DNA of 23,847 nucleotides from a virus: positions 1-23,847 of the IMG/VR virus record IMGVR_UViG_3300025151_000302; one strand, written 5' to 3'. Below are positions 20,399 to 23,847 of the stretch, in pieces (position 1 is the first letter of the stretch; every line of letters starts with the position of its first letter). The notes below the pieces were generated by a model. The model saw only the letters and a list, made by a program, of their open reading frames with translations. It had not been told where the DNA came from and ran no database searches. Position numbers and translations under genes: made by a program.

Positions 20399-22087
20399 TT
20401 AATAACCACCACCACCTGTGACCTGTATGTCACGATGGGTGACATGGTCTGCACCACTTACAAATAAATATCGCAGGCAGTCAATTTGGTCAGAGAAGTA
20501 ATCACTCTTACTCTCCCCTGCATATTCAAGCATGGAAGATATTGTATTCTCGCATTGATCGGAGAAGTAAAGCTTGGGGCAATTCTTGTCTGTCATGGTT
20601 TCTGTATCATCCCAACTCAGTGCATCATTAATCTTGGCAATACCTGAGTCTATAGACACACCTGGTGCAGCACGCATCACAAATCCCATGTTACTCATTG
20701 TATTGATTATATTACTTTCTCCCTCCTTTGTACGCACTGTGGCTGCTCCCATTCGTGGGTCAACTATCCGTTCAAATATCTCCTCACCATCTTCCTGTGC
20801 TTCAAAGTAGGATAAGTAGTCTGAGTACCCCCAACCTAGAGGACGTTGTCCAGGGCCAGGTTTACCCACTGCTTTACCAGCACCATTAATATGTGGGATT
20901 GCCCATGCTCCCATCGTACTATCAGGAAACTCACGATAGATGTATATCTTCTTGTCCTTCGTCACACCTGCCCATAATCCAACCCAAGGTTTACTGCCAC
21001 CCGGATCGCATATAAAGTAACGGGTTACATTTACAGATGGATCGAGAATGAATGGTATCTTACTATGTTCAATTACATTGGTCTCACGCTGGAATTTTGG
21101 AAATTTTCCTTCAAAGCTTTTACTCGGAATACCAAATAATCGAGCAAGCTTTACCTCCTGTGGTTGCTTGGAATAGGTACGCACAAGTTCATTGGAATCA
21201 ACGAAGGGTGAATCCTGTGACCAGAAATAATATATCCGACAATCTGGCCAATTAGCAGACACTTGCTCCAAGGGCAGTTCCCTGCCCATTAACTCGCTGT
21301 ATTTTGAACTAACTGTCGTAGCTCCTTTCAATAAACTATTAACTAATGGCGTGTATCCTTGCAGGGTCGTAAAGGTCAGAATTACACGCCCGTGGTAGTC
21401 TACTGTTCTACCACCGACAAGCGTATTAAAAATATTCTCAGGTGCTTCCTCGTCAAGATGGATGCAATGTGCAGACCATCCCTCAAAGATTTGTGGGTCT
21501 GCCATGTACTGCCTGTAATTATTAAAGTATATCGTACTCCCACGCTCGGCATCTGGTGTGGTTGGTGGCAAGATTGCTTTACCAGCATTAAATCCATTCT
21601 TCTGAGTATATTGTAAAGAATGATTAGTTCCTTTTTTCTTACTTCTCTTGTATCGTGCAGGCAGGCTCTCGTGGATATAACGTTGGCTATCAGAAATTGA
21701 TCTTTCCTCACTGACATGCATGGAACGTATCTCTGCTTCGGGTATGTTCTGTGCCAAGTGGACAAGCAAACGAGACGCAAAGGTGGTTTTGGACGAACGA
21801 TTGCCTCCCAAAATAATATGGATCTTTGTGGAATCCCAATTTTCCATGACCCTGCGCCACCCAGGAAGAGTCCAACCCCATTCGATTGGATCTTCCTTCT
21901 CGCTGTTTGGTTGGTCAAGAAGCAAGCGTGTAAGTGTTTCTGCTCGTACAGGATCTTGTACAGTTAGCCTATCTATCTCTTCATCTGATAATGCGCACTT
22001 TAACTCTCCTCTATCATACTTAAAGTCATCTGTCCAAGGCACGCCAAAGCGTGCGTCTATTTCATCTGCATAGGTTATTTTACCCAC
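20399..22087 (-). CDS. terL: Terminase large subunit (ATPase-nuclease DNA packaging motor)
   Basis: This 562-residue protein would pump phage DNA into the prohead through the portal and cut concatemers. Visible motifs: a Walker A-type loop GGNRSSKT at 94-101 following a beta strand (IHIIL), Walker B CIHLDEE at 208-214, and a possible coupling motif around LTFTT at 237-241. The C-terminal RNase H-like nuclease is marked by acidic residues in FICDPGG (D361), IVDPRMG (D443) and DYFSDQIDCLRYLF (D533/D536). Length and motif order fit a complete large terminase. Start is GTG at 22087; upstream purine-rich GAG lies about 12 bases away. The protein ends in a glycine-rich GGGGY tail. The portal gene follows after 41 bases. 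Confidence 0.96.
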   Translation of the reverse strand: MGKITYADEIDARFGVPWTDDFKYDRGELKCALSDEEIDRLTVQDPVRAETLTRLLLDQPNSEKEDPIEWGWTLPGWRRVMENWDSTKIHIILGGNRSSKTTFASRLLVHLAQNIPEAEIRSMHVSEERSISDSQRYIHESLPARYKRSKKKGTNHSLQYTQKNGFNAGKAILPPTTPDAERGSTIYFNNYRQYMADPQIFEGWSAHCIHLDEEAPENIFNTLVGGRTVDYHGRVILTFTTLQGYTPLVNSLLKGATTVSSKYSELMGRELPLEQVSANWPDCRIYYFWSQDSPFVDSNELVRTYSKQPQEVKLARLFGIPSKSFEGKFPKFQRETNVIEHSKIPFILDPSVNVTRYFICDPGGSKPWVGLWAGVTKDKKIYIYREFPDSTMGAWAIPHINGAGKAVGKPGPGQRPLGWGYSDYLSYFEAQEDGEEIFERIVDPRMGAATVRTKEGESNIINTMSNMGFVMRAAPGVSIDSGIAKINDALSWDDTETMTDKNCPKLYFSDQCENTISSMLEYAGESKSDYFSDQIDCLRYLFVSGADHVTHRDIQVTGGGGY

Positions 22088-22111
22088 GATTTAATATCTC
22101 TATTCCTACAA

Positions 22112-22318
22112 TCATTGCTTCTTCGAGCGTGTTGCACGGGATTTCCTTTTCACCGATTGTCCAGCCTTCCGTATCCGTTCCAACGTCTCTGGGCTTAATT
22201 GCAAGGGTGGTGGCCCTAGCTTTCTCAAGTCGCACCTCGGTAATTTGGCAACTGATTCGGATATCGCTCGTCCGTATTTTTTCCAATAAATCGGATTGTA
22301 TCCCTTGGGTACTTTCAC
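22112..22318 (-). CDS. Small basic protein, 68 aa, upstream of terminase
   Basis: A GTG start at 22318 overlaps the preceding TGA in a GTGA arrangement. The protein begins MKVPKGYNPIYWKKYGRAI, has a proline-rich middle (LRKLGPPPLQLSPETLERI) and ends with a lysine/arginine tail (SVKRKSRATRSKKQ). This tail suggests nucleic-acid binding. The terminase GTG follows after 24 bases. A small terminase role is possible from position but the protein is short and has no recognisable DNA-binding fold, so the function is left open. A 121-residue frame covering the same bases lacks these junctions and was rejected. Confidence 0.68.
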   Translation of the reverse strand: MKVPKGYNPIYWKKYGRAISESVAKLPRCDLRKLGPPPLQLSPETLERIRKAGQSVKRKSRATRSKKQ

Positions 22319-22464
22319 TTGCCATTACATTTGCAGGCATCTTCATAAAATTGCTTCCATTGCTTGCCACATTGCCAGCATCTCTGCCATCCAAACGGGG
22401 CTTTTCTTGCCCATAACTTCTGCTGCTCGACAGTCCATTCATCATCCCCGTCTATCCACTTCAT
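22315..22464 (-). CDS. Zinc-ribbon-like microprotein, 49 aa
   Basis: ATG at 22464 opens a 49-residue frame ending at TGA 22317-22315. The protein starts MKWIDGDDEWTVEQQKLW and continues with RCWQCGKQWKQFYEDACKC, giving a CxxC pair and a CxC pair about 12 residues apart, as expected for a small zinc-binding knuckle, and it has five tryptophans. The start overlaps the upstream stop (ATGA), and its own stop overlaps the GTG of the next gene (GTGA at 22315-22318), so its place in the coupled chain is well supported. It is masked by a longer, unlikely open frame on the same strand. DNA or protein binding is inferred only from the cysteine pattern. Confidence 0.72.
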   Translation of the reverse strand: MKWIDGDDEWTVEQQKLWARKAPFGWQRCWQCGKQWKQFYEDACKCNGK

Positions 22465-22667: not shown

Positions 22668-22846
22668 TCTTCATCCTCCTCTAGTTCCATGTCGCATTCA
22701 AAATCCACAACATCCTCCTCAAAATATTCATCCACTGCATCATGCATGCAGTTCAATAAATCAGAATCCTCCAAGTCAGATTCCTCTGACCAGCGATGGA
22801 TCAAGTTTTTCAACTCATGTATAAATTGTCTTTTTGCGTCTTCCAT
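22664..22846 (-). CDS. Small acidic protein, 60 aa
   Basis: No family is recognised. The first 20 residues look helical (MEDAKRQFIHELKNLIHRW), after which the chain is strongly acidic and ends in MELEEDEE. The high negative charge is typical of small phage proteins that bind or mimic nucleic-acid partners, but no function can be assigned. The TGA stop overlaps the ATG of the next gene in an ATGA arrangement (22664-22667), which supports it as a member of a translationally coupled chain leading to terminase. The start overlaps the preceding small gene by 32 bases and has only a weak ribosome-binding site. Confidence 0.6.
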   Translation of the reverse strand: MEDAKRQFIHELKNLIHRWSEESDLEDSDLLNCMHDAVDEYFEEDVVDFECDMELEEDEE

Positions 22847-23018
22847 AATTTACTAAGTCAAATTTCCCCTTGCTTGGCATTCTGCGTGGTATCGTTGTCC
22901 GATACACTGTGCCGCGTTTGTTGATTGCCAATTGATTCTTGTTCCAAAATCTGTGCCAAGCTTCGTTCATTTCTGCGTAACTTACTGAGCATTCATTTCC
23001 TTCCATAAACTCGTCCAT
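22815..23018 (-). CDS. Small hypothetical protein, 67 aa
   Basis: I do not recognise this protein. It is basic in its second half (NKRGTVYRTTIPRRMPSKGKF, then GRRKKTIYT) and rich in aromatic residues in the middle (AWHRFWNKNQ). The first ATG at 23018 lies 37 bases inside the methyltransferase 3' end but only one base after the stop of the overlapping WATP frame. A later ATG at 22970 (MNEAWHRFW, 51 residues) would clear the methyltransferase stop; neither has a strong ribosome-binding site, so the start is uncertain. Its end overlaps the next small gene by 32 bases. Confidence 0.55.
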   Translation of the reverse strand: MDEFMEGNECSVSYAEMNEAWHRFWNKNQLAINKRGTVYRTTIPRRMPSKGKFDLVNYGRRKKTIYT

Positions 23019-23847
23019 GCTAGTTCTGCTGTTTGGGGGACAACTCCGTTGCCCAAGAGCCTAAGTCTGTCCACCCTGTGCTGAGTCCCATGAGTTGCTC
23101 CACCCATGAAGGATTGAGCTTCGATGACCCTTGGTTCTTCCCACACGTATTGCTCTTCTCCTGGTCTTGCAGGCCATTGTGTATCTTTGCTTCCTCCGCT
23201 AGTATCTTGCCCCCCGTTCCGGGCTTGCGACTGCCTGGGTTGCCTGCTCGTGGGGTTGGCCAATTCTGCTCCTTGTAAATATCGCAAGTCTTCTTGTCCA
23301 CTTGCTCCCGTAGATTGCTCGGACGCTTCCTTCCCTTCCTCGCTCCGCTCGCTATCTTTTCCACTCCCTCCGCTGATCGAGTCTCCATGTAGTCCATCGT
23401 GTTTGGTGTTGCCCAATTCATCTGATTCAAGTCTCTCCCCAAGCACTTCTGATTGCTCTCCTTCGCAGTTCTCGCTCCCTCGATGTGGTCGGAGGCTTGT
23501 GGAGTTGCCCAATTTTTCTTCCGATCCTTCTCGCCTTTCGGCCTTTTCGGAAGACCTACAATTGATGGATGATTGCTCAAGCCTTGCTGTCCGTAATTTG
23601 CCTGATTCGATATTTTTCCTGCTTCCGCTGTTGTGGGCGTTGCCCAATTCTTCCCTTGTGGAAGATGCCCGGTCTCCACATACCTCAATTGTGTGCGATG
23701 AGCTTTCCTCGTTGGATCTGCTGCTCCATTGCTGTCCGAAGTCTGCGCGGTAGGCCAGGATGAACACTCGTTTCCTTTGGTGTGGAGCGCCAACTTCTTC
23801 CGCGCTGAATATGCCCCACGCGCATCTATAACCTTCTTCTTCCAAAT
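22982..23847 (-). CDS. C5 DNA cytosine methyltransferase, C-terminal part (5' end outside window)
   Basis: The reading frame enters from the window edge with no credible start, so the catalytic half (motifs I and IV with the PCQ cysteine) is not visible. About 15 residues in is a motif VIII-like stretch, VGAPHQRKRVFILA. The last 30 residues hold the motif X region, RVDRLRLLGNGVVPQTAEL, in the form usual for phage C5 methyltransferases. Between them lie about 200 hydrophilic residues where the target-recognition domain should be; they carry recurring LGN(A/S/T) or LANP blocks. The enzyme would transfer a methyl group from S-adenosylmethionine to cytosine C5, probably protecting phage DNA from host restriction. 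The same DNA is open for 257 codons in a second minus-strand frame. The family call rests on the two motif blocks; specificity and activity cannot be judged. Confidence 0.88.
   Translation of the reverse strand, partial: LEEEGYRCAWGIFSAEEVGAPHQRKRVFILAYRADFGQQWSSRSNEESSSHTIEVCGDRASSTREELGNAHNSGSRKNIESGKLRTARLEQSSINCRSSEKAERREGSEEKLGNSTSLRPHRGSENCEGEQSEVLGERLESDELGNTKHDGLHGDSISGGSGKDSERSEEGKEASEQSTGASGQEDLRYLQGAELANPTSRQPRQSQARNGGQDTSGGSKDTQWPARPGEEQYVWEEPRVIEAQSFMGGATHGTQHRVDRLRLLGNGVVPQTAELAWTSLWKEMNAQ
23020..23793 (-). other. Long overlapping ORF inside the methyltransferase gene (WATP-repeat frame)
   Basis: A 257-codon open frame overlaps the methyltransferase completely, shifted by one base on the same strand. 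Its translation has four blocks of NWATP or NWPTP and ends LNPSWVEQLMGLSTGWTDL plus a short basic tail. From memory, blocks of the type W(P/A)TP and a C-terminal LNPxWVEWLMG-GWTDL are found in phage proteins associated with cytosine methyltransferases, so this frame does not read like random shadow. The first plausible start is TTG at 23793 with no clear ribosome-binding site, and the frame is open further upstream. Its TAG stop is one base before the ATG of the next small gene at 23018. It could be a true overlapping gene, a relic of a fused frame, or a side effect of repeated DNA. Expression is unproven. Confidence 0.35.

Follow-up and report, generated by a model that had tools for sequence, protein, structure and literature searches.

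A phage C5-cytosine methyltransferase locus that probably encodes two polypeptides in overlapping reading frames

Two overlapping genes at the edge of a viral record

The window, by which we mean the whole stretch of 23,847 bases that was analysed, is an entire public virus record. ORF calling finds its minus strand open in two frames near one edge: alpha (22982-23845) is the methyltransferase frame, and beta (23020-23847) is nested in it at +1. Because the window is the whole record, the 5' ends of both genes are missing, and the start site of this particular locus is not visible, window and record being cut at the same place. The features are as follows, all on the minus strand:

22982..23845, minus: alpha, 3' part of a C5 cytosine methyltransferase gene (ORF; PF00145; PHROGs "DNA methyltransferase"; complete relatives)
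23020..23847, minus: beta, nested +1-frame ORF with WxTP modules and tail (ORF; phrog_1008; stop avoidance; substitution classes)
23750..23794, minus: alpha motif VIII, VGAPHQRKRVFILAY (VGAPHQRKRVF), from the alpha-frame sequence
23650..23760, minus: beta module M0 (SWPTAQTSDSNGAADPTRKAHRTQ...), also coding in the alpha frame (5 other loci have a module of this family)
23515..23649, minus: beta module M1 (NWATPTTAEAGKIS...) (module analysis)
23419..23514, minus: beta module M2 (NWATPQASDHIEGARTAKESNQKCLGRDLNQM), in 42 loci (subject to the bias of patterns taken from the window)
23266..23418, minus: beta module M3 (NWATPNTMDYMETRS...RKGRKRPSNLREQVDKK...) (identity to 25 distant loci, beta versus alpha frame)
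23119..23265, minus: beta module M4 (NWPTPRAGNPGSRKPGTGGKILAEEAK...) (module analysis)
23062..23118, minus: beta tail LNPSWVEQLMGLSTGWTDL, motif-IX-like (near-invariant across the family; similarity to motif IX not significant in hhalign)
23015..23065, minus: alpha motif X, LRLLGNGVVPQTAELAW / RLLGNGVVPQTAELAW (alpha-frame sequence; phrog_1008 positions 291-319)
22815..23018, minus: next small gene, 67 aa, overlapping the end of alpha (ORF; junction and gene recur in relatives)

A sequence-only reading had already described two open minus-strand frames at 23020-23793. ORF calling bears this out, except that the second frame stays open past the TTG at 23793, as far as the window edge. The same reading recognised a methyltransferase by motifs VIII and X, and both are indeed located in alpha, motif X (of the GNxVxPxxAE type) as RLLGNGVVPQTAELAW; alpha matches Pfam DNA_methylase PF00145 with an E value of 1.3e-9. 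The four NW(A/P)TP blocks that it read in the other frame are present, and with an additional SWPTAQ they make five WxTP modules, beta having LNPSWVEQLMGLSTGWTDLGSWATELSPKQQN as its C-terminal end. The LGN blocks that it saw in the methyltransferase frame also exist, but they are the same bases as the NWxTP blocks of beta, read one frame back. Finally, the beta stop (TAG at 23022-23020) lies, as described, one base before the ATG of the next small gene at 23018. This TAG-c-ATG/GTG junction opens the next small gene in about half of the relatives examined, a spacing suggestive of coupled translation; in other relatives the gene lies farther downstream.

Motif IX was absent from alpha on sequence and profile examination of the window and the complete relatives, which together present motifs I-VIII and X without IX, as required of a large subunit of the M.EcoHK31I kind; unlike an ordinary C5 methyltransferase, alpha does not combine its catalytic motifs with a target-recognition domain and motif IX in a single chain. 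In alpha-type genes the PF00145 match mostly stops at about position 165-206 of 324, compared with about 322 for canonical genes of the same genomes, and alpha of one complete relative aligns to M.HhaI only at residues 73-171 (motifs IV-VIII), so that the small domain would be left to be supplied. To judge from its sequence, alpha carries a polar linker under weak constraint from motif VIII to motif X.

Stop avoidance and selection in the two frames

Relatives were found in IMG/VR with patterns taken from the modules of the window, a procedure that biases module counts; the same kind of loci was retrieved with an alpha-frame or a beta-frame query. Both frames are open in all of them (about 55 distinct loci after removal of duplicates), with 11-34 stops in the third frame of complete genes. 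In the complete relatives beta is open over almost the entire methyltransferase gene, that is over some 280-490 codons (743 in one case, L039). The overlapping coding suspected by the sequence-only reading thus seems to be true dual coding, but it is not confined to the target-recognition region and spans almost the whole gene. Homologues freely carrying stops in the second frame would have refuted that suspicion, and no relative carries such stops.

In 10,000 synonymous shuffles of alpha, 5.4 stops are expected in the beta frame of the window, and there are none (p ~1e-4). Nearly all longer or complete relatives give p <=0.003 in the same test, and the third frame has stops as expected. There is a mild circularity here, as the span tested is set by the beta ORF itself; the control with canonical genes avoids it by starting at motif IV. 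In that control, 14 canonical C5 methyltransferase loci of the same bacterial genomes (a few of them possibly one gene counted twice) have +1 stops at the expected frequency, and ten alpha-type genes of those genomes have +1 open runs of 182-299 codons (p <=0.036).

The substitution analysis for each frame that had been recommended on the basis of the sequence was run, and it indicates constraint on both. Silent third positions of alpha are second positions of beta, so the four classes of substitution separate cleanly. For 24 independent pairs in the variable region, dNN/dNS of beta is 0.067 (0.043-0.098) and dSN/dSS 0.22 (0.13-0.40), the corresponding values for alpha being 0.17 (dNN/dSN) and 0.57 (dNS/dSS). 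SN/NS is 0.39 (0.25-0.54), meaning that, per site, changes that alter beta and are silent in alpha occur 2.6 times less often than those that do the opposite. The roles are exchanged in the N-terminal half of the window's family, where SN/NS is 4.4 and beta is moderately constrained (dNN/dNS 0.31, 0.21-0.45). In the window's family alpha is thus the less constrained of the two frames over the stretch from motif VIII to motif X. Across the overlap in the wider family (72 independent pairs), beta has dNN/dNS 0.134 (0.114-0.162) and dSN/dSS 0.29, and alpha dNN/dSN 0.162. We conclude, within what comparison of sequences can establish, that both frames are under purifying selection, and we regard the dual coding of alpha and beta as nearly certain. 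The suggestion that one of the two families was born from the other by a change of reading frame is not needed to explain the present constraint.

Modules, distribution and split loci

The relatives contain 218 modules that fall into about 60 families and recur in varied orders and contexts; this tally is biased by the search patterns and includes a few early pieces that are not real modules. Paenibacillus, Treponema, Clostridia and other viruses share module M3 (WATPNTMD...NLREQV) with the window. Compared with 25 distant loci, it has 63% identity in the beta frame versus 31% in the alpha frame, and this higher long-range identity in beta suggests that DNA cassettes have been exchanged and that the beta reading is what persists. 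The tail, LNPxWVExLMGxPxGWT (LNPxWVEwLMGfPxGWT), is near-invariant across the family.

The sequence-only reading had further supposed that the WATP frame belongs to a recurring phage protein family. Such a family exists: beta of the window matches phrog_1008 ("DNA methyltransferase") with an E value of 6.9e-14, phrog_1008 matches 30 of 30 short betas, and a query made from a consensus of WxTP and tail elements retrieved 61 phage records annotated as methyltransferase, as hypothetical or as both. In the cases examined, however, it is nearly always a nested +1 frame of a C5 methyltransferase and not a separate gene. Ten phage records (Paenibacillus, Acinetobacter, Escherichia, Aeromonas, Lacticaseibacillus, Stenotrophomonas and others) were inspected, and in each the frame with the WxTP blocks lies at +1 to the methyltransferase. 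The label of phrog_1008 hides that, in the loci examined, the matching region is nearly always this nested frame and not the methyltransferase frame. One annotated case is Paenibacillus phage Shelly, where a methyltransferase, gp55, contains a nested +1 "g55 internal gene" with WxTP blocks and LNPEWVECLMGFPIGWTDI; unlike the window's family, its beta starts inside alpha, and the annotators assigned it no function.

A scan for the tail pattern LNPxWVE[WQC] confirmed 331 stretches in species genomes; in viral contigs the number is at least 569. Among the best 160 of these loci (80 from bacterial genomes and 80 viral), beta is nested exactly at +1 in a C5 methyltransferase ORF spanning the tail in 155, and in the remaining 5 the alpha ORF ends earlier; none of the 160 has beta at offset 0 or +2. 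We also considered two other arrangements. A single-frame gene joining beta to motifs I-VIII was found in none of these 160 loci, and a separate WATP gene family can hardly be maintained, since almost all copies from phages, plasmids and the 80 bacterial-genome and 80 viral loci are nested, the main exceptions being L102 from Brevibacillus borstelensis (the same locus as L180) and L111 from a Bacillota MAG.

In these two loci alpha ends just after motif VIII and its frame is riddled with stops from there on, yet an intact beta extends past LNPDWVEWLMGFP into a motif X in its own frame. The absence of any WATP-frame protein outside the overlap would have counted against the original observation, and L102 and L111 show that this objection fails. 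The split shows that beta exists as an independent protein and that alpha can do without its variable region, and the gain of motif X in the beta frame ties beta to the methyltransferase. The phrog_1008 profile ends in a motif X resembling that of L102.

Several copies are unusual in other ways. L099 has one alpha stop. L092, on a Bacteroides finegoldii plasmid, has two alpha stops in the N-terminal half with beta open, and its sole annotation is a downstream piece, called hypothetical. The 743-codon beta ORF of L039 (L039:3443-5671) has nine WxTP-type blocks and continues for 236 codons beyond its LNPRWVEALMG tail, passing the end of alpha. L206 has an extra beta-only fragment (L206:2120-2353; one WxTP module and tail) directly downstream of a complete alpha, whose end it overlaps. 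Five alpha/beta gene copies with identical match statistics are present on one chromosome of a Roseovarius MAG (OX638333.1; L121-L125), and three in Lihuaxuella thermophila (L134-L136).

A two-polypeptide methyltransferase and its alternatives

We think that the locus very probably encodes a two-polypeptide C5-cytosine methyltransferase, written in one DNA stretch in two frames, in which beta provides recognition and a motif-IX-like segment. There are no protein or biochemical data, and the biochemical role of beta is an inference, as are the alpha-beta complex, target recognition by the modules, multispecificity and the anti-restriction purpose. Alpha, in frame 0, would contribute the catalytic motifs I-VIII and X, and beta, in the +1 frame, an array of WxTP modules and then the motif-IX-like segment. 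Beta would most likely bind alpha and supply the missing small domain, its tail doing the structural job of motif IX and each WxTP module recognising one DNA target. Exchange of dual-coded module cassettes between phages could then lead to several target sequences being methylated by one phage, and hence possibly to the evasion of several host restriction enzymes. Both proteins would start at one AUGUG or GUGUG in the window's family, and in other branches beta would have its own Shine-Dalgarno sequence and ATG inside alpha.

An arrangement of this kind is already known from one or two enzymes. A methyltransferase of the M.EcoHK31I type would be expected to need both polypeptides for activity and to have YGGCCR specificity; the small-subunit gene of M.EcoHK31I lies within the large-subunit gene in another frame. 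The large subunit of that enzyme has motifs I-VIII and X, and motif IX is in the small polypeptide (PMC3404938). As in M.EcoHK31I and M.EaeI, loci of the window type have a large chain with I-VIII and X and a nested second gene (at +1 in the 155 of 160). There are also differences: the window's family shares one AUGUG start with an overlap of about 0.8-1.4 kb, the carriers are phages and prophage-like loci for which membership of a restriction-modification system has not been shown, and beta is an array of exchangeable modules. Moreover, conservation here points to recognition in beta, and the fact that the target-recognition domain of M.EcoHK31I is predicted in the large subunit, not in its beta (PMC3404938), counts against this part of our interpretation.

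Motif X in the second chain, as met in L102 and L111 and not in the window, recalls M.AquI. In that enzyme alpha has motifs I-VIII and the second polypeptide the variable region, IX and X; unlike it, the window has one gene nested within the other in a second frame, and keeps motif X in alpha. The modules and mosaics of beta are in turn like those of the multispecific phage C5 methyltransferases of the SP-beta/phi3T type, multispecificity being inferred in our case. In these enzymes, which are single polypeptides read in a single frame, several short recognition modules lie in the variable region and are exchanged between phages.

It is possible, though we consider it unlikely, that beta is a real nested protein without being a subunit of the methyltransferase; it could, for instance, regulate alpha or be a separate protein that counters restriction or binds DNA. 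Beta has no match to any Pfam or NCBIfam family, the hhalign alignment of its tail with canonical methyltransferases falls on motif IX without being significant, and a search of PDB sequences with the beta profile found nothing. AlphaFold models of a short beta, run with 30 and then 106 sequences, are weak (pLDDT 66.7, pTM 0.40 with 106). Foldseek with this model found no match in the PDB and only marginal hits in a viral library, to phage proteins annotated as methyltransferases and to uncharacterised ones. Given the weak model and the lack of a PDB match, the small-domain role of beta is not structurally shown. Nevertheless, beta nearly always lies within a C5 methyltransferase gene, the alpha that accompanies it has neither a constrained variable region nor motif IX, motif X in the beta frame of L102 and L111 can be understood only with beta as a part of the methyltransferase, and M.EcoHK31I offers a precedent.

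The start sites bear on a second alternative, in which programmed frameshifting would fuse the N-terminus of alpha to the C-terminus of beta with no separate initiation. In complete genes of the window's family the start is AUGUGG in 30 of 40 and GUGUGG in 5, the rest having neighbouring starts; the first codon opens beta and the GUG two bases on opens alpha. In E. coli, translation of both frames can begin at an AUGUG site (PMC9841429). Other branches have the beta start within alpha. There, 73 of 119 genes have a Shine-Dalgarno-like site before the first internal beta ATG, synonymous resampling predicting 31.9, and later beta ATGs have one in 99 of 1308 cases; these figures are evidence that the start sites of beta are under selection. 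The constant +1 offset would indeed allow a single +1 shift to produce the fusion, and no search for slippery sites was made. However, we find this explanation very improbable in view of a beta start codon beside or inside alpha with apparently selected Shine-Dalgarno sites, the moderate constraint on the N-terminal half of beta in the window's family, and the loss of motif X that a fusion would entail.

We see still less reason to regard the +1 frame as an untranslated shadow kept open by base composition and codon usage. The strand is poor in T (16-20%), which lowers the frequency of stops in every frame, but shuffles that preserve composition and codon usage still give about 5 stops per gene, with the third frame as expected, and canonical C5 methyltransferases of the same genomes do carry +1 stops. 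To this must be added the Shine-Dalgarno enrichment at the first beta ATG, the persistence of beta where the alpha frame has decayed, and the rarity, in the variable region, of substitutions silent in alpha and changing beta; the last two, as comparative evidence, appear to us already to refute the idea. Lastly, that beta could be an out-of-frame homing endonuclease inserted in the methylase, as might be imagined from the ShiLan element of mycobacteriophages, an out-of-frame HNH ORF in a phage methylase gene (PMC11855218), can practically be set aside, since there is no insertion (beta is coextensive with the motif-bearing alpha, in all relatives), beta matches no HNH or other endonuclease family, no relative was seen that lacks the beta segment and has an otherwise intact alpha, and the criteria of a ShiLan-type HNH insertion (absent from relatives; HNH in the other frame) are not met.

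For the family as a whole, the two-polypeptide reading would imply a large and mostly unannotated branch of C5 methyltransferases in which recognition resides in an out-of-frame protein, the WxTP modules act as independent units, dual-coded cassettes, each having to be meaningful in both frames, are exchanged so as to alter or extend the methylated targets against host restriction, and one AUGUG starts both subunits; on this broader proposal our own opinion is evenly divided. No paper on a widespread nested methyltransferase family was found in the open-access literature, most subscription journals being outside the search. As far as that literature shows, what is new is the breadth, the quantified selection on two frames, the cassettes that are dual-coded and put recognition in beta, the AUGUG start common to both genes and the derivatives that are split.

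Long same-strand overlaps with measurable selection on both frames are rare, most candidates resting on open frames alone, and beta has come through all the sequence tests applied to it (stop avoidance, substitution classes, starts, long-range conservation and survival after decay of alpha). The family is widespread, and neither Pfam nor NCBIfam has a model for it. For many methyltransferases of phages and bacteria, therefore, only one of the two proteins has probably been annotated, which would explain a possible failure of such enzymes when expressed alone. The family would also offer a natural system for the evolution of modular specificity under two-frame constraint, and its AUGUG sites would be a native collection of dual starts.

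Just before the terminase gene, the window contains another pair of ORFs dual-coded on the same strand (22080-22328 and 22112-22318, minus strand). A 68-aa ORF (VKVPKGYNPIYWKKYGRA...) is overlapped by a second one (..SESTQGIQSDLLEKIR...), and about 8 bases separate the two starts (ATGGCAAGTG in the window). Neither frame has a stop in any of 33 distinct loci, where shuffles would give 1.5 second-frame stops per locus and the third frame has a mean of 4.3.
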